Source: a virus. Taken from it: a stretch of DNA of 45,615 bases. The position numbers were made by a program, and so were the translations under genes. Position 1 is the stretch's first letter; every line of letters starts with the position of its first letter. The notes beneath the pieces were generated by a model. The model did not search any database and was not told the DNA's origin. It saw nothing but the letters and a program-made list of their open reading frames with translations. Shown piece after piece: positions 10,923-29,279 of the stretch. Where the stretch lies: IMG/VR virus record IMGVR_UViG_3300021131_000012, positions 1 to 45,615 of that record; one strand, written 5' to 3'.

Positions 10923-10954
10923 TAGGGGCCCTAAAGGGCCCCTAGGTATTTTTT
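10923..10954 (+). terminator. Rho-independent terminator
   Basis: A 9-bp GC-rich stem, TAGGGGCCC with GGGCCCCTA, closes on a TAAA loop and is followed within five bases by TTTTTT. It lies 140 bases after the 74-aa gene and should end rightward transcription from region 9733-10784. Confidence 0.75.
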
Positions 10955-10963
10955 CTTAGGGGG

Positions 10964-11080
10964 TGTAGTCCCATTTTATAGGACTGTATCATTTTTTGGG
11001 ACTGCTTAGTCCCACTCCTTGGGACAACCATGTCCTACAATGTAGGACTACATGCAGTCGCATACGATGGGACGCATACG
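10964..11080. repeat. Cluster of AGTCC/GGACT palindromes and a direct repeat
   Basis: Three neighbouring inverted repeats share a core: AGTCC (10967-10971) with GGACT (10981-10985), TGGGACT-GCTT-AGTCCCA (10997-11014), and GTCCTAC-AAT-GTAGGAC (11032-11048). A further GGGAC lies at 11021-11025. They are followed by GCATACG twice with a 14-base period (11060-11066, 11074-11080). The last copy runs into the first copy of a dyad operator. No gene fits here. The pattern resembles a protein-binding cluster or a replication origin. Confidence 0.5.
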
Positions 11081-11095
11081 TATAACTACTTATAG
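11080..11095. promoter_or_regulatory. Operator copy 1 (GTATAA-N4-TTATAG)
   Basis: The 18-base sequence TACGTATAACTACTTATA at 11077-11094 is repeated exactly at 12893-12910 and with two changes at 12942-12959. The core is a dyad, GTATAA, four bases, TTATA. Here the symmetry is 5 bp. It sits about 90 bases before the gene starting at 11183. Confidence 0.5.
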
Positions 11096-11182
11096 ACTAA
11101 AGTATAGCTATCAACCAACGGTTTAATGTTGCAGGATACTTGGACCATCATATTCCGTGATGGTTTATTAGGAGCGTATCCC

Positions 11183-11380
11183 ATGAATACCGAAAACATT
11201 CTGACCGCCAAGCATCAAGCTGCCTATCTCTCAGAACGACTTCTCATCGGCTACTATGCACAGGCAGGCAGTGCGCGCGACTATCATATCCGACAAGCTC
11301 ATGAGGCATTGCGTCAAGCGGCAGAGGCCATGGGCTATGCGCTCGAGCCTATCGCGCAAGATGATCAAGATGCCGCTTAA
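11183..11380 (+). CDS. Small helical protein
   Basis: A 65-aa protein of unknown function. The start at 11183 is set by TTAGGAG nine bases ahead; an in-frame ATG at 11126 has no such site. The sequence is Ala-, Gln- and His-rich and helical (HEALRQAAEAMGYALEP). It is first in a three-gene run (11183-11902) that ends at a strong terminator. A 7-bp hairpin with a GCAA tetraloop (11387-11404) follows its stop. Confidence 0.55.
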   Translation: MNTENILTAKHQAAYLSERLLIGYYAQAGSARDYHIRQAHEALRQAAEAMGYALEPIAQDDQDAA

Positions 11381-11386
11381 CACTAA

Positions 11387-11404
11387 TGGGGGCGCAAGCC
11401 CCCA
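11387..11404 (+). other. GCAA-tetraloop hairpin
   Basis: TGGGGGC-GCAA-GCCCCCA is a perfect 7-bp stem capped by a GNRA-type tetraloop, between two small genes. No T-run follows, so it is not a normal terminator. It may limit read-through or protect the 3' end of the first message. Confidence 0.45.
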
Positions 11405-11423
11405 CACTCACAAGGGGCAGACT

Positions 11424-11657
11424 ATGAAAACAATCACTCTCACAGCACCCGCACATTGGGCATGCTACTTGATCAATGCTGATGCTTCCGGCTTGGATGA
11501 CGAAGATCAACGCGCATGCGATTTATTCTTTCGTTCGCAATTCGGGCGCAAAGGCGCGATTTGTGTCGATGCGGAAGATGTCGGTTTCGTCGCATGGCAT
11601 GATGCTCGAGCATATGCGCTAGCGGCAGACTGTGCAGAATTCACTTTTATAATCTAA
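11424..11657 (+). CDS. Small DUF6926-like protein
   Basis: A 77-aa protein beginning MKTITLTAPAHWACYLIN. The pattern HWxxYLINxDxSGLDD and a later CVDAEDVGFVAWHDA recall a family of small phage and plasmid proteins (I think DUF6926); the function of that family is unknown to me. The ATG at 11424 has AAGGGGC six bases ahead. It lies between two other small genes and ends in TAA, which overlaps an unused ATG. Confidence 0.6.
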   Translation: MKTITLTAPAHWACYLINADASGLDDEDQRACDLFFRSQFGRKGAICVDAEDVGFVAWHDARAYALAADCAEFTFII

Positions 11658-11668
11658 TGGGGGATACA

Positions 11669-11902
11669 ATGGTTGATCAATACGCAATACAGGCCGCCAG
11701 AGATACTCTCGAGCGCAATGGGGTGTTTATTCTCTTGTCTATATCAACGGAAGACATAAAGGACATAGCGGCTTCTAGCGATATGCCAGAACCGTCCTTT
11801 GTTGATTGTATGTTGATCGCAAAGGAAATAGACAAGGAATGGCAAAGCGGCGATGAGTGGCAATATATATGCGATAGAGTGCAAGACAAATTGAACGATT
11901 AA
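11669..11902 (+). CDS. Small acidic hypothetical protein
   Basis: A 77-aa acidic protein, unknown function. The start at 11669 (MVDQYAIQ) is chosen because GGGGGA lies just ahead; the ATG at 11657 overlapping the previous stop has no ribosome-binding site. It is predicted to be helical with a Trp-rich C-terminal part (EWQSGDEWQYICDRVQ). It is the last gene before the terminator at 11936. Confidence 0.55.
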   Translation: MVDQYAIQAARDTLERNGVFILLSISTEDIKDIAASSDMPEPSFVDCMLIAKEIDKEWQSGDEWQYICDRVQDKLND

Positions 11903-11935
11903 CAAGCCAGACTAAAAGACTGTAACACAATGGTT

Positions 11936-11964
11936 AAGGCCCGCTCAAATATGGCGGGCCTTTT
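11936..11964 (+). terminator. Rho-independent terminator
   Basis: A 9-bp stem, AAGGCCCGC with GCGGGCCTT, has a 9-base loop and continues into TTTTC. It ends the rightward run 11183-11902 and lies between convergent genes. On the opposite strand the stem is followed by only two T residues, so it should act mainly on the plus strand. Confidence 0.75.
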
Positions 11965-12042
11965 CTATGTCCATTCTATTGTGCAGCGCAACATAAAATG
12001 GGGTTTTGAGGGGGTCGAGTATTTCGCAAGTGCGAGATAGGA

Positions 12043-12816
12043 TCAGGCGAACATGCTTTCACCGATTCCCCATAATTGCGCATTCAACCGCAAGTCACTA
12101 TCGGCCCCGCGAATCTTGCGGATTGATCGAACCTTGCCCATTGCAACACCCTGTATGCCACCACGGGTTAAATGCTCTTGAACCCGATTAAATGTGCACC
12201 ATGCGTTATCTTGCGCATCTTCCGGCCGTTTAGCCTCTAACAGGTCACCAGCCACGACTGGACGTTTATCCGCCACTGGATATCGCAATTCCAATGCGGC
12301 TTGTGCGAAGTCTAATTGTTGCGCGTAGGTCAAATGCTTTTTAGACCACCCGTCGATCAAACGGTCCGCCGCCGTTGTGCTTGCTTGGATATGCGCTACG
12401 GCCGCTTTGATCCTGTCCCACAGATTACCACCACGATGACCAAGTGAGGCAGAACCATAATCTTTCGAATAGGTCACAATTCCATTGGCGCACACAAAGC
12501 GAAACACACCACCAAACAATTCCACCGCCTTTGTTCCATCATGCGCATTGCGTAACAGGATTTGCGCCACAGTTCCATCATGGTTCACTGGTGCATCAAA
12601 GTGTTGGAATTTAACGATATGGGTATTGAAACCATACTTATGCGCTTTGCGAACACGGGCCGCTTGTGCGTCTACTACGCCAAACCCAAGCTCGGACATG
12701 TGCTGGACTATATCGATTGTGGGAATATGCGCATATTTTGCACTACGGGATTCGTGCGCTTCCATTTTAAACACCGCCGCCGGAAGGCTATTGATGCTTT
12801 TGAATTCGGTAAACAT
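12043..12816 (-). CDS. DUF932-family protein
   Basis: A 257-aa protein of the DUF932 (phage/plasmid-like TIGR03299-type) family. Signs are the N-terminal HESRSAKYAHIPTIDIVQHM (about residues 20-39), the GFGVVDAQAARVR segment and the later GGVFRFVCANGIV (about 101-113). The family is common on plasmids and phages and has no settled function. The gene stands alone on the minus strand inside the rightward accessory block. Its 5' region holds two copies of the dyad operator shared with the gene starting at 13045, so both could answer to one regulator. Confidence 0.75.
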   Translation of the reverse strand: MFTEFKSINSLPAAVFKMEAHESRSAKYAHIPTIDIVQHMSELGFGVVDAQAARVRKAHKYGFNTHIVKFQHFDAPVNHDGTVAQILLRNAHDGTKAVELFGGVFRFVCANGIVTYSKDYGSASLGHRGGNLWDRIKAAVAHIQASTTAADRLIDGWSKKHLTYAQQLDFAQAALELRYPVADKRPVVAGDLLEAKRPEDAQDNAWCTFNRVQEHLTRGGIQGVAMGKVRSIRKIRGADSDLRLNAQLWGIGESMFA

Positions 12817-12892
12817 AGGCTCTTATCCTTTTGTCTTATCCCCACCATTAGGGAAGGACTAACAGTGCCTAAACTTTTCCTTTAAGTCAATG

Positions 12893-12962
12893 TACGTATA
12901 ACTACTTATACCCTATGCGATCCGGCCTTGTTGCGCTCGCCTACGTATAAACACTTATACGT
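12893..12962. promoter_or_regulatory. Operator copies 2 and 3 between divergent genes
   Basis: Copy 2 (12896-12911) is GTATAA-CTAC-TTATAC; copy 3 (12943-12962) is ACGTATAA-ACAC-TTATACGT, a perfect 8-bp dyad with a 4-base centre. The centres are 49 bases apart. They lie in the 228-base gap between the leftward DUF932 gene and the rightward gp88-type gene. The same dyad appears once at 11080. TTGACT-like -35 boxes occur on both strands nearby (plus strand 12973-12978) but without strong -10 boxes. Confidence 0.55.
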
Positions 12963-13044
12963 TGATCTGCACTTGACTATTGTGCAACAATGATTAACGT
13001 GTGATGCATGACCGTGGGGACGGTCGTTTAGTGGAGCTAGAACA

Positions 13045-13782
13045 ATGCAGATACAATTTAAACGATTCTTTTCAGTTGATAGTCCCAAGGCAATCAAGGC
13101 CAATGAATACGGCTATCTTAACGCTATCAATTACATGGCACCAGCTAGAACAGCAGGCCATGGTGATATGTGTCCCGATGCTTCCAATGGTTGCAAGTCT
13201 ATATGCTTGGGCGAACACTCCGGACAAGCGGCGATGCGCAAGGATGGTGAGGATAACGCGGTAACGTTATCCCGCAAGAATAAGATCATCTATTTCATGT
13301 CCGACCGTAAAGCATTCATGGCGGAGATGGTGGCGCATATCGCGAAACTAGAACGATCCGCCAAACGTGATAATTTGACATTGGCTGTGCGCCCTAACGG
13401 ATCAACGGACATCGCATGGGAAGGAATTCGAGACGAAAACGGGTTAACAATCTTTGACCATTTCCCGTCTATTCAATTCCTTGACTACACGAAAAATCCG
13501 CGCCGCTTCAAACGTCCACTTCCAGCAAACTATCATTTGACCTTTTCCCGTTCGGAAACAAACGAAGCGCAATGCCGCGCATTGCTATCGCAAGGTGTCA
13601 ATGTGGCTGTGATCTTTGCCCATGGTTTACCCGTTGTGCGCAATCTTTGGGGGCATCCTGTGATTGACGGTGATAAGCACGATTTGCGATTCCTTGATCC
13701 GCAAGGCGTGGTTGTCGGGTTAACACCAAAAGGCAACAAGGCAAAGCGTGACATGTCTGGTTTTGTGTTGCGCGACTATTGA
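13045..13782 (+). CDS. Gp88-like family protein
   Basis: A 245-aa protein that resembles the phage 'gene product 88' family. It has an N-terminal cysteine group, MCPDASNGCKSICLGEHSG (C43, C50, C54), followed by a long conserved-looking stretch (SRKNKIIYFMSDRKAFMAEM) and NGSTDIAWEGI. The Cys spacing could hold a metal or Fe-S cluster, but no function is established for the family as far as I know. GGAG precedes the ATG by 8 bases. It diverges from the DUF932 gene and ends at a terminator whose sequence is repeated 180 bases further on. Confidence 0.65.
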   Translation: MQIQFKRFFSVDSPKAIKANEYGYLNAINYMAPARTAGHGDMCPDASNGCKSICLGEHSGQAAMRKDGEDNAVTLSRKNKIIYFMSDRKAFMAEMVAHIAKLERSAKRDNLTLAVRPNGSTDIAWEGIRDENGLTIFDHFPSIQFLDYTKNPRRFKRPLPANYHLTFSRSETNEAQCRALLSQGVNVAVIFAHGLPVVRNLWGHPVIDGDKHDLRFLDPQGVVVGLTPKGNKAKRDMSGFVLRDY

Positions 13783-22975: not shown

Positions 22976-23358
22976 ATCTTTTTGATCCTAGGGCGGCGAA
23001 TCTTTTTTGTCAACGCTTTTCCGTCAACGAACAATGTAATCGTAACTTTGTGGTAAAGTTCAGCCGCCTTCTTGCGAAGTTTGAACGCCGTATCCATCAT
23101 CGTCCCGCGACTTTTAACGTCTTCGATCACCCATTCGCCAATCCTGTTATCGAAATAACGGAAGTCGGCTGTGTACGTGCAGTACAGTTGCAGATCGATA
23201 TAAACCTTGAACTTCGGCTGGAGTTCCAAGTGATGGATTTCCCCCGCCTTCTGCATCAAGCCCAATTCGACATACCGGAACGCTTCGGTCTTGCTATCGA
23301 AAACGATACCATTAATCGTTCGGTCTTTCTTCGGGGATACTCGGTATCTCGGAGGCAT
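22960..23358 (-). CDS. DUF1064-family nuclease-like protein
   Basis: A 132-aa protein of the DUF1064 family. The pattern GIVFDSKTEAFRYVELGLMQ (17-36, with E25), LELQPKF (44-50), YTADFRYF (62-69, D65) and VIEDVKS (77-83, E79, K82) is the PD-(D/E)xK nuclease core. Such phage proteins may cut branched DNA or help recombination, but the substrate is not settled. Start at 23358 (MPPRYRV) with AAGG ahead. It overlaps the Cro-like gene by 47 bases in another frame. Confidence 0.8.
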   Translation of the reverse strand: MPPRYRVSPKKDRTINGIVFDSKTEAFRYVELGLMQKAGEIHHLELQPKFKVYIDLQLYCTYTADFRYFDNRIGEWVIEDVKSRGTMMDTAFKLRKKAAELYHKVTITLFVDGKALTKKIRRPRIKKIAPPE

Positions 23359-23584
23359 TGGGCATCCTTGGGAAAAAGTCATCGGGGGTCAGTTCAATGC
23401 CACGCTGACGTGCGGCAACCATAAGTTCTAACTGGCGGCGATGAGGAATCAACCCACCACCACCGAAGTTTTCCTTCGGCCATGTCCAACGGTAGATCGC
23501 TTGCGGCGACAAACCCAACATCAACGATACAGCGCGAACACCACCAAGTTTGTTGATGACGCGTGTGGCAACCTTGTGTGTCAT
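23312..23584 (-). CDS. Cro-like regulator
   Basis: A 90-aa helix-turn-helix protein. LGGVRAVSLMLGLSPQAIYR (13-32) is the DNA-binding part. The later W..P....GGGGLIPHRRQ and GIELTPDDFFP patterns are typical of small Cro/C1-type or YdaS-like proteins that read the start of an operon. It is the first gene of the leftward replication block and lies just after a strong promoter, opposite the rightward Tat genes, so it could control both. AAAGGA is about ten bases before the ATG. Confidence 0.75.
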   Translation of the reverse strand: MTHKVATRVINKLGGVRAVSLMLGLSPQAIYRWTWPKENFGGGGLIPHRRQLELMVAARQRGIELTPDDFFPRMPNASEIPSIPEERPND

Positions 23585-23617
23585 TTTGTTATTTTTCCTT
23601 TAAACTAACGCTTGACA

Positions 23618-23646
23618 ACTATATGTTGAGTATGGTTTGATGTCAA
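23618..23646 (-). promoter_or_regulatory. Sigma70-like promoter, leftward
   Basis: On the minus strand TTGACA (23646-23641), a 17-base spacer and TATAGT (23623-23618), near consensus. It drives the Cro-like gene and the replication operon. A plus-strand TTGACA (23612-23617) faces it and would point to the rightward genes, but its -10 (GTTTGA) is poor. Together they make a TTGACA...TGTCAA symmetrical switch. Confidence 0.75.
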
Positions 23647-23667
23647 TCACAAAAGAGGAGAAAGATG

Positions 23668-23904
23668 ATGGATCGTAGGCAATTCTTTATTGGGGTCGGG
23701 GCGGCTGTTGCTGCTCCGGCGGTGATCCGAAGAAGCCTTATCATGCCAGTCAAACAAATTATTGAACGACCAACATACAAAGAAATTCTGTACACAACGC
23801 GGAAGTGTTTGATCCCACCCTTGATTGTTCAAATGTACAATACGCAAAATAGCATGCTGGCGAATATGCAGACCAACACATGGATAGAAAATCATGGATC
23901 GTAG
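23668..23904 (+). CDS. Tat-signal protein 1
   Basis: A 78-aa protein with a twin-arginine signal, MDRRQFFIGVGAAVAAPAVI (RR-x-F-F), followed by RRSLIMPVKQI. The Tat system exports folded proteins to the periplasm. The rest is short and partly aromatic. AGGAG lies seven bases before the chosen ATG; an ATG one codon earlier is also possible. It overlaps the next gene, which has the same kind of signal. The function is unknown, though 'AAP-AVIR-x-x-LMPVK' starts seem familiar from other phages. Confidence 0.65.
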   Translation: MDRRQFFIGVGAAVAAPAVIRRSLIMPVKQIIERPTYKEILYTTRKCLIPPLIVQMYNTQNSMLANMQTNTWIENHGS

Positions 23905-24364
23905 ATCGTTTATTAGGGGCCTTGTAGCGGCTCCACTCGTTATCCGGACTCCCGGAATTCTGATGCCCGTCAAAGCCGTCCCTGAGCCGTTTGCGTACGT
24001 CAGATGCATGTGGATGGATGGCAGTGAGTCTATGAAACTAGTTTGGAGCATGCAACCAGCATCGTTTGTCGCGGCGGAACCGTGGTTCGATGATGTCGCG
24101 AGCATCATAAGTTACGAATATACCGACAAGAACCCCGAAACGAACCCATACATTTCCAATGCGGAAGTGTTCTCTTCATTTAGCCGCAAGAGTGGTAGCC
24201 CAATGTTGGTGCCCGCCCAAAGAATGGAATACAAGCCGCATAAAACGATTGAATATGAAGATTGGGAACTATTTGCTTTCAATGAAATCGACAAATTGAA
24301 AGACGAATCGATAAAAATGTCATTAGACGCAAATGGCAACAAATTAATAATAGAATCAAAATGA
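23894..24364 (+). CDS. Tat-signal protein 2
   Basis: A 156-aa protein with another twin-arginine start, MDRRSFIRGLVAAPLVIRTP, then LMPVKAVPEPF as in protein 1. The mature part contains YVRCMWMDGSESMKLVWSMQ and FVAAEPWFDDV, then a charged C-terminal region. It overlaps protein 1 by 11 bases. Two neighbouring genes with paired Tat-like leaders and the same MPVK after-signal motif look like relatives. A Tat-exported phage protein would act in the periplasm or at the inner membrane. Confidence 0.65.
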   Translation: MDRRSFIRGLVAAPLVIRTPGILMPVKAVPEPFAYVRCMWMDGSESMKLVWSMQPASFVAAEPWFDDVASIISYEYTDKNPETNPYISNAEVFSSFSRKSGSPMLVPAQRMEYKPHKTIEYEDWELFAFNEIDKLKDESIKMSLDANGNKLIIESK

Positions 24365-24672: not shown

Positions 24673-25155
24673 ATGGGACTGATCATTAAACATTGGACCG
24701 TACACGAGCTTAAAACCGCCCGTGATATGGTGGAAAAGGGCCATACGGCACTGGAGATAGGGCGGGCCATAGGCCGCAGTAAGAGCGCGGTCATTGGTTA
24801 TTTCAACCGCCAAGGTTTGAACCTTGCTCGAAAACGGGGCGGTGTTGCTGGACCAAACGCCCGAACAAAAAAAGAGAAAAAATCGCCGCCTATTGTTTCC
24901 CTTTTACCCGACGAGAAGCCGAAGTTAAAGCCGACCAAGACCTTTATGGAAATGAGTGACAAATACTGTCACGCCATATTTGGGGATGTGGATGGCGTTT
25001 ATACGCAATATTGCGGATTGAACGTAATGAAAGCGGGGTGCGCGTGGTGCGAGGACCACTACAAATTGTATTACACGTACAAGAAGGAGAACACGAATGA
25101 GTACAAACAAACTAATTCGCGAAATAACAAGCTTTTTGCAAGACCACCAATGTGA
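24673..25155 (+). CDS. GcrA-like regulator
   Basis: A 160-aa protein resembling GcrA, an alphaproteobacterial cell-cycle regulator that works with sigma70 at GANTC-methylated promoters. The N-terminal helix-turn-helix reads KSAVIGYFNRQGL (37-49), very like GcrA's RNAVIGKxxRLGL. The C-terminal module has C99, C114, C123, C126 and H129 in the pattern C...FGD...YCG......C.WCEDHYKLYY, like GcrA's C-terminal part. GGAG lies before the ATG. It overlaps the next gene by 59 bases. As a phage protein it may redirect host transcription; this role is inferred. Confidence 0.75.
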   Translation: MGLIIKHWTVHELKTARDMVEKGHTALEIGRAIGRSKSAVIGYFNRQGLNLARKRGGVAGPNARTKKEKKSPPIVSLLPDEKPKLKPTKTFMEMSDKYCHAIFGDVDGVYTQYCGLNVMKAGCAWCEDHYKLYYTYKKENTNEYKQTNSRNNKLFARPPM

Positions 25156-28763: not shown

Positions 28764-28971
28764 CCCATCTATGCCCGTCCTGACCCCCAAAGGGCCAGCA
28801 AACGCGCATTTCCTGTTGGACTACAGCGAAGATCACCATTTGTTCTGGGTTTGTGCTATGCGCGAAACCGGAGAAATGTGGACGTTCCCCAATTATAAAA
28901 TTCGGGCGCAAGCAAATCCGACTATGGGTAGGGATAAGATTCCCGTACCGGAAAACTGGTGGGTAAAATGA
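28741..28971 (+). CDS. Small hypothetical phage protein
   Basis: A 76-aa protein: DPSMPVLTPKGPANAHFLLD, YSEDHHLFWVCAMRETGEMW and NYKIRAQANPTMGR. The 'PVxTPxG...A.FLxDYS' layout is common in phage small proteins, function unknown. AGAGGAAG lies ahead of its ATG, and it overlaps the next start by four bases (ATGA). Confidence 0.6.
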   Translation: MALIHRIDPSMPVLTPKGPANAHFLLDYSEDHHLFWVCAMRETGEMWTFPNYKIRAQANPTMGRDKIPVPENWWVK

Positions 28972-29279
28972 ACCTCATTCAGACTATCATTTGGGCTAGG
29001 GCCATCACGCCACGAGACCAAATCTTAATCCTACGTATGCTCGACACGCATGGCACAAAGCCGTTCGATGCGGATATCGCTGATCTGGCGGAAATGATGT
29101 CACTCCCGAAGTCATCGATCTACGAATGCATCAAACGGCTCAAAAGCATCGACTGGTTAGAGACGGAGCCTGTGTACCTTGATGGGACTTATCGCCGTTT
29201 GAAGAAGCGTTCCAAAACGCGCTATCGGGTCAAACTAGAGATAAAAAAAGAGGCGGACCGAAGCCCGCCTGAGTTCTAG
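28968..29279 (+). CDS. Winged-helix DNA-binding protein
   Basis: A 103-aa protein with a helix-turn-helix: ADIADLAEMMSLPKSSIYECIKRL (about 35-58, the middle is the turn), then a beta-wing (IDWLETEPVYLDGTYRRL). Its layout is like initiators' N-terminal winged helices or regulators. It is the last rightward gene and faces the lysis genes, so it may switch expression late. The 3' end is within a short GC-rich inverted repeat (AGGCGG/CCGCCT) that overlaps the stop. Confidence 0.65.
   Translation: MNLIQTIIWARAITPRDQILILRMLDTHGTKPFDADIADLAEMMSLPKSSIYECIKRLKSIDWLETEPVYLDGTYRRLKKRSKTRYRVKLEIKKEADRSPPEF

Follow-up and report, generated by a model that had tools for sequence, protein, structure and literature searches.

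Operators bound by the CI and Cro proteins of lambdoid phages (lambda, P22 and 434) are short dyads with a free centre, present in several copies at divergent or early promoters. A spacing of 23–24 bp between operators is characteristic of lambda OR. Putative operators of the hicAB type offer a second likeness. They are found ahead of HicA/HicB-like genes (HicB-like antitoxin, PF15919) on four contigs (L313, L316, L322 and L356) of a viral family unrelated to the phage described here. These regions carry two copies of a TACGTA-N4-TACGTA dyad, one of them exactly between a -35 (TTGACA or TTGACG) and a -10 (TATAAT) sequence, where a bound protein would, by its position, be expected to repress. 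The NarL/FixJ heptamer is TACYNMT, which TACTTAT fits and TACGTAT does not; no protein of this kind was seen in the phage. A literature search on palindromic TACGTA repressor operators returned a single paper, on Vibrio VarR (PMC5595328). A literature search for DUF932 together with gp88, the two gene families that flank the paired sites described below, returned nothing.

The stretch of DNA analysed here (the window) is a 45,615-base IMG/VR virus record, in which TACGTATAA-NN-ACTTATA has three copies (11077, 12893 and 12942), all of them intergenic, and no others (0.03 copies expected by chance). The 18-mer TACGTATAACTACTTATA is exact at 11077–11094 and 12893–12910. The copy at 12942–12959 differs at two bases and forms a perfect 8-bp dyad, ACGTATAA-ACAC-TTATACGT. 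The positions of the 18-mer and this dyad agree with a preliminary description of the DNA, as does the intergenic location of the three copies, one in the leader of the 11183 gene and two in the space between the DUF932 and gp88 genes. A related word, GTATAANNNNTTATAC, is exact at 12896 and 12945 and has one mismatch at 11080. The motif is specific: no other site in the window, within a gene or outside, matches the 18-mer at three mismatches or fewer (0.03 expected), and none of 100 shuffles reaches three. Few copies confined to intergenic DNA are what is looked for in the operators of a regulon. The features of the locus are as follows.

11077–11092: putative operator O1, TACGTA-TAAC-TACTTA, an exact match to TAMGTA-N4-TACKTA
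12893–12908: putative operator O2, TACGTA-TAAC-TACTTA
12942–12957: putative operator O3, TACGTA-TAAA-CACTTA, one mismatch
12883–12898: possible extra half-site TAAGTC, phased 10 bp to the left of O2
11183–11902, plus strand: run of small genes (65, 77 and 77 amino acids), downstream of O1
12043–12816, minus strand: DUF932 gene (PF06067, E = 2e-27), downstream of O2
13045–13782, plus strand: gp88-family gene (PF17338, E = 2.5e-36), downstream of O3
11103–11108, plus strand: candidate -10 box of the 11183 run, TATAGC
12885–12890, minus strand: candidate -35 box of DUF932, TTGACT, placed by alignment, 2 bp beyond O2
12862–12867, minus strand: candidate -10 box of DUF932, CACTGT, 17 bp from the -35
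12973–12978, plus strand: candidate -35 box of gp88, TTGACT
12995–13000, plus strand: candidate -10 box of gp88, TAACGT, 16 bp from the -35
11113–11123: second conserved dyad, AACC-N3-GGTT, at the presumed 11183 transcription start
11144–11164, plus strand: leader hairpin of the 11183 gene, just before the ribosome site
13010–13025, plus strand: leader hairpin of gp88, GACCGTGGGGACGGTC, before the ribosome site
10923–10944 (upstream of the 11183 run) and 11936–11962: terminator-like hairpins

Judged from sequence and setting, a gene-control protein very probably binds these sites. The reading preferred here, with a probability of about 0.6, is that O1–O3 are operators of one sequence-specific dimeric regulator, which would most likely repress genes that are probably early. 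Each putative operator is a 16-bp dyad with half-sites 10 bp, or about one helical turn, apart, to which a dimer would bind. The three stand at three promoter regions: that of the 11183 small-gene run, and the divergent promoters of DUF932 and gp88. The operator set is real but of a familiar kind. The lambdoid operators differ from it in sequence and arrangement: the paired window sites are 49 bp apart, the sites lie at accessory genes, and none is found at the Cro-like gene. From the earlier proposal of a dimeric regulator we keep the intergenic, conserved and probably dimer-bound sites at three places, and give up the dyad register and the candidate proteins.

The sites are conserved in related phages. 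Protein searches identified the relatives G001 (45.2 kb), G002 (58.9 kb), G003 (21 kb) and L119/L003 (4.4 kb), the first three syntenic with the window. G002 carries about 8 kb missing from the window, which is therefore probably a fragment of a 55–60 kb genome. Between DUF932 and gp88 the motif recurs in G001, G002 and L119, and G002 has it at the 11183 place as well; sites are kept at both places in G001, G002 and L119, and in altered form in G003. With one mismatch or none, TAMGTA-N4-TACKTA is found four times in the window (0.15 expected), five times in G001, three times in G002 and four times in G003. All of these matches fall in the same two intergenic regions, with none elsewhere in the 171 kb that the window and these three contigs make up; no match is present in G007, which is more distant. 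Sites of the originally described type number exactly three without mismatch in the 58.9-kb G002. The space between DUF932 and gp88 always holds two copies, spaced 49, 49, 49 and 48 bp. Mean identity in four close relatives is 93% for O2 and 100% for O3, against about 41% for the 31 bases between them. Orthologous places are thus kept while neighbouring bases drift, and conserved sites with a drifting spacer are what a protected site would look like. Similarly, in an alignment of the 11183 leader from six relatives, ATACGTA and TAC.TA are invariant and few of the bases around them are.

The pattern also performed well out of sample. (i) Searching for a single operator followed by an AACC-N3-GGTT dyad picked out L213, in whose leader two more exact sites stand outside the query, making three in all. 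(ii) The operator pattern alone, searched as two copies within 30 bp, returned L317 and L351. Both are relatives of the window phage (terminase 90% and portal 83% identical) and carry three exact sites upstream of their counterpart of the 11183 gene. A different query, a 15-mer scanned against viral contigs, gave 93 matches that were chance-like except for L119. DUF932–gp88 pairs without the site are common, as on L009, L011 and L013 and, in divergent orientation, on at least 12 further contigs, and therefore the control or link is not general; nor is the site generally enriched at other DUF932 loci.

The dyad had been read as GTATAA-N4-TTATAC. This register proved to be wrong: its outer right arm varies in close relatives, and other relatives have lost the dyad, whereas the kept dyad is the 16-bp TAMGTA-N4-TACKTA, centred 3 bp further left. 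The idea of a retained half-site around a variable four-base centre survives in part, since the centre is indeed freer than the arms, but not with the half-sites originally drawn. Over 20 sites, many of them orthologous and hence not independent, 62% of arm cells pair in the original reading and 83% in TAMGTA-N4-TACKTA. In the original dyad, centred at 11.5 of the 18-mer, the required partner of position 4, a G in every site, is position 19, where all four bases (C, G, T and A) occur. In the dyad centred at 8.5, G4 and C13 are invariant, and M3 and K14 both vary. The leaders of L199, L119/G001 and G003 have lost the original right arm and retain TACGTA-N4-TACKTA, and G003 has no copy of the original dyad. 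The symmetry of the revised dyad is kept in orthologues and in the out-of-sample matches. The 8-bp perfection of the third copy looks like a local accident, because its orthologues in L119 and G002 break the outer arm and leave the left TACG unchanged.

Promoter-like sequences can be placed beside each site, and their arrangement bears on the direction of control. A scan for consensus promoters lists none of the candidates at 11183, DUF932 or gp88. At the DUF932 promoter place, relatives read TTGACT, TGGACT, TTGCAT or TTGTTT, then N17, then CATTGT or TATTGT; the G003 form is TTGTTT-N17-TATTGT. The possible extra half-site left of O2, also present in G001, may be merely the -35 box of this promoter. 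The gp88 -35 candidate begins 13 bp past the original 18-mer of O3, and TTGACTATTG at this candidate promoter is invariant in five aligned sequences. A separate dyad, ATTGT-GCA-ACAAT, occupies 12979–12991 within the gp88 promoter spacer and is kept in most relatives. The 11183 promoter has no -35 box, and O1 occupies its place; relatives give TCTAGC, TATACT or TATTAT at the candidate -10. A further operator stands directly next to TTGACA in G003 and in L213.

A site may thus lie over the -35 place, abut the -35 or stand further out, and because this position varies repression appears most likely. A promoter-like sequence of its own stands beside each site, so the suggestion that the two copies 49 bases apart could be bridged is not needed. 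The paired spacing is kept at 48–49 bp; 49 bp is about 4.7 helical turns, and the paired sites would therefore face different sides. The sites could instead serve an activator, a phage or host protein that brings RNA polymerase to weak promoters, as in a temporal switch of early genes. The poor candidate -10 boxes, the absence of a -35 at O1, and the abutment of O2 and of the upstream site of G003 and L213 on a -35 all suit such a protein. We consider it somewhat unlikely, in that site–promoter distances vary from one of the three promoters to another by amounts other than whole helical turns, which weakly favours repression over activation, and the hicAB-type analogue sits in a repressor position.

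Alternatively, the hexamers might form a tandem direct repeat, TACKTAYA with a period of 10 bp, bound head to tail or by two ribbon-helix-helix dimers on the self-complementary TACGTA. Over the same 20 sites the direct reading scores 0.81 and the inverted reading 0.83, nearly equal because TACGTA is its own complement, and the leader sites keep TACGTA-N4-TACKTA. Ribbon-helix-helix proteins are suited to self-complementary subsites one turn apart. The only sites that separate the two readings are the TAAGTA-N4-TACTTA sites of G003 and L317, which fit inversion alone; for this reason a purely direct repeat, numerically close as it is, was set aside. Searches of the window, G001, G002 and G003 found no RHH_1, Arc or HicB-like gene, which a HicB- or Arc-type operator would be expected to have in the same genome; the window is without the ~8 kb present in G002. 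The head-to-tail or ribbon-helix-helix arrangement is, on balance, unlikely.

There is little probability that the TATA-rich sites are themselves promoter or origin elements that bind no regulator. They are AT-rich, copy 1 of G002 reads TATAAT, and the paired sites lie within a divergent intergenic region; against this, no proper -35 stands at a fixed distance, and separate promoter-like boxes lie beside the sites. T7-like promoters in particular were excluded, as no phage RNA polymerase was found among the large proteins tested. Chance similarity, conceivable for a short AT-rich motif, is refuted for practical purposes because the sites are conserved in relatives, with a drifting spacer, recur out of sample and exceed an expectation of 0.03–0.15 per window.

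The leaders may contain further signals besides the dimeric regulator's putative operators. The AACC-N3-GGTT dyad, which could act as a second operator or form a hairpin in the RNA, is also found in the leaders of G002, L119, L199, G003 and L213; G003 has the form TAAACC-TTT-GGTTTA, and G001 one with a broken pair. The 11183 leader hairpin suggests a conserved RNA structure, because the stems of relatives are spelled differently at the same place; only some fold better than shuffles. The gp88 leader hairpin is 92% identical in four close relatives and absent from G003. Rfam gave no match. The gp88 fold is predicted with confidence (pLDDT 91.6) and has no significant PDB match; the DUF932 model is poor. 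The gp88 family has three invariant or near-invariant cysteines, C43, C50 and C54. A genome scan found only distant gp88 genes, in planctomycetes and Ekhidna, and pointed to no host. In G002, a tRNA-Gln gene (L189:5465–5539) immediately precedes the 10560-type gene; the window lacks one.

The regulator itself was sought among three encoded DNA-binding candidates named previously: a Cro-like protein (23312–23584), a GcrA-like protein (24673–25155) and a winged-helix protein (28959–29279), all conserved in G002. None has a site near its own gene in either the window or the 58.9-kb G002, and autoregulation by any of them was rejected on these grounds. A lambdoid immunity operator would be expected at the gene of its repressor. 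Near the Cro-like gene there is no TAMGTA-N4-TACKTA site at two mismatches or fewer, and its region in G002 has none either; the gene is also 66–67% conserved in G007, which lacks the site. The G007 homologue (L181/G007:7298–7570) has an in-frame TAA near its C-terminus. Face-to-face promoters occupy 23585–23664, between the Cro-like gene and a rightward operon, with TTGACA-N17-TATAGT on the minus strand. The dyad CAACTATATGTTG within this interval is a better candidate operator for the Cro-like protein than O1–O3. Two proteins encoded beyond it, at 23665–23904 and 23894–24364, begin with twin-arginine-like signal sequences, such as MDRRSFIRGLVAAPLVIR. The regulator of O1–O3 could come from the host or be a phage protein that escapes recognition.

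Related operator arrangements extend beyond this phage group. Pairs of TACGTA-N4-TACKTA operators occur on 67 viral contigs (within L293–L358), against about 0.1 expected by a rough estimate scaled from the match count of the 15-mer scan; flanking similarity groups these contigs into about 18 families, one of them the family with hicAB-type promoters. Start-to-start spacing peaks at 23–24 bp (39 of 66), in which these pairs resemble lambda OR. On L321 (1168–3703) and L347 (594–1541), members of a phage family unrelated to the window phage and found only by the operator pattern, a DUF932 gene is preceded by a TACGTA array, and on L321 a GP88-family gene stands beside it. A paired TTATAA array on L197 was discarded, this contig having no visible relation to the window phage. 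It is improbable, if conceivable, that a single, widely distributed type of regulator, encoded by phages or by their hosts, recognises the paired TACGTA-type operators of many unrelated phages and has a possible functional tie to the DUF932/gp88 gene pair.

For an uncultured group of 55–60 kb phages, the analysis supplies an exact, testable operator sequence and the set of genes beside it. The correction of the register changes which bases should be mutated, the outer arms first proposed being positions free to vary. About 18 viral lineages have paired TACGTA-type operators, and this recurrence offers a route to finding the regulator. DUF932 and gp88 are both families of unknown function, and the sites between their genes suggest that in this group they are under shared control.
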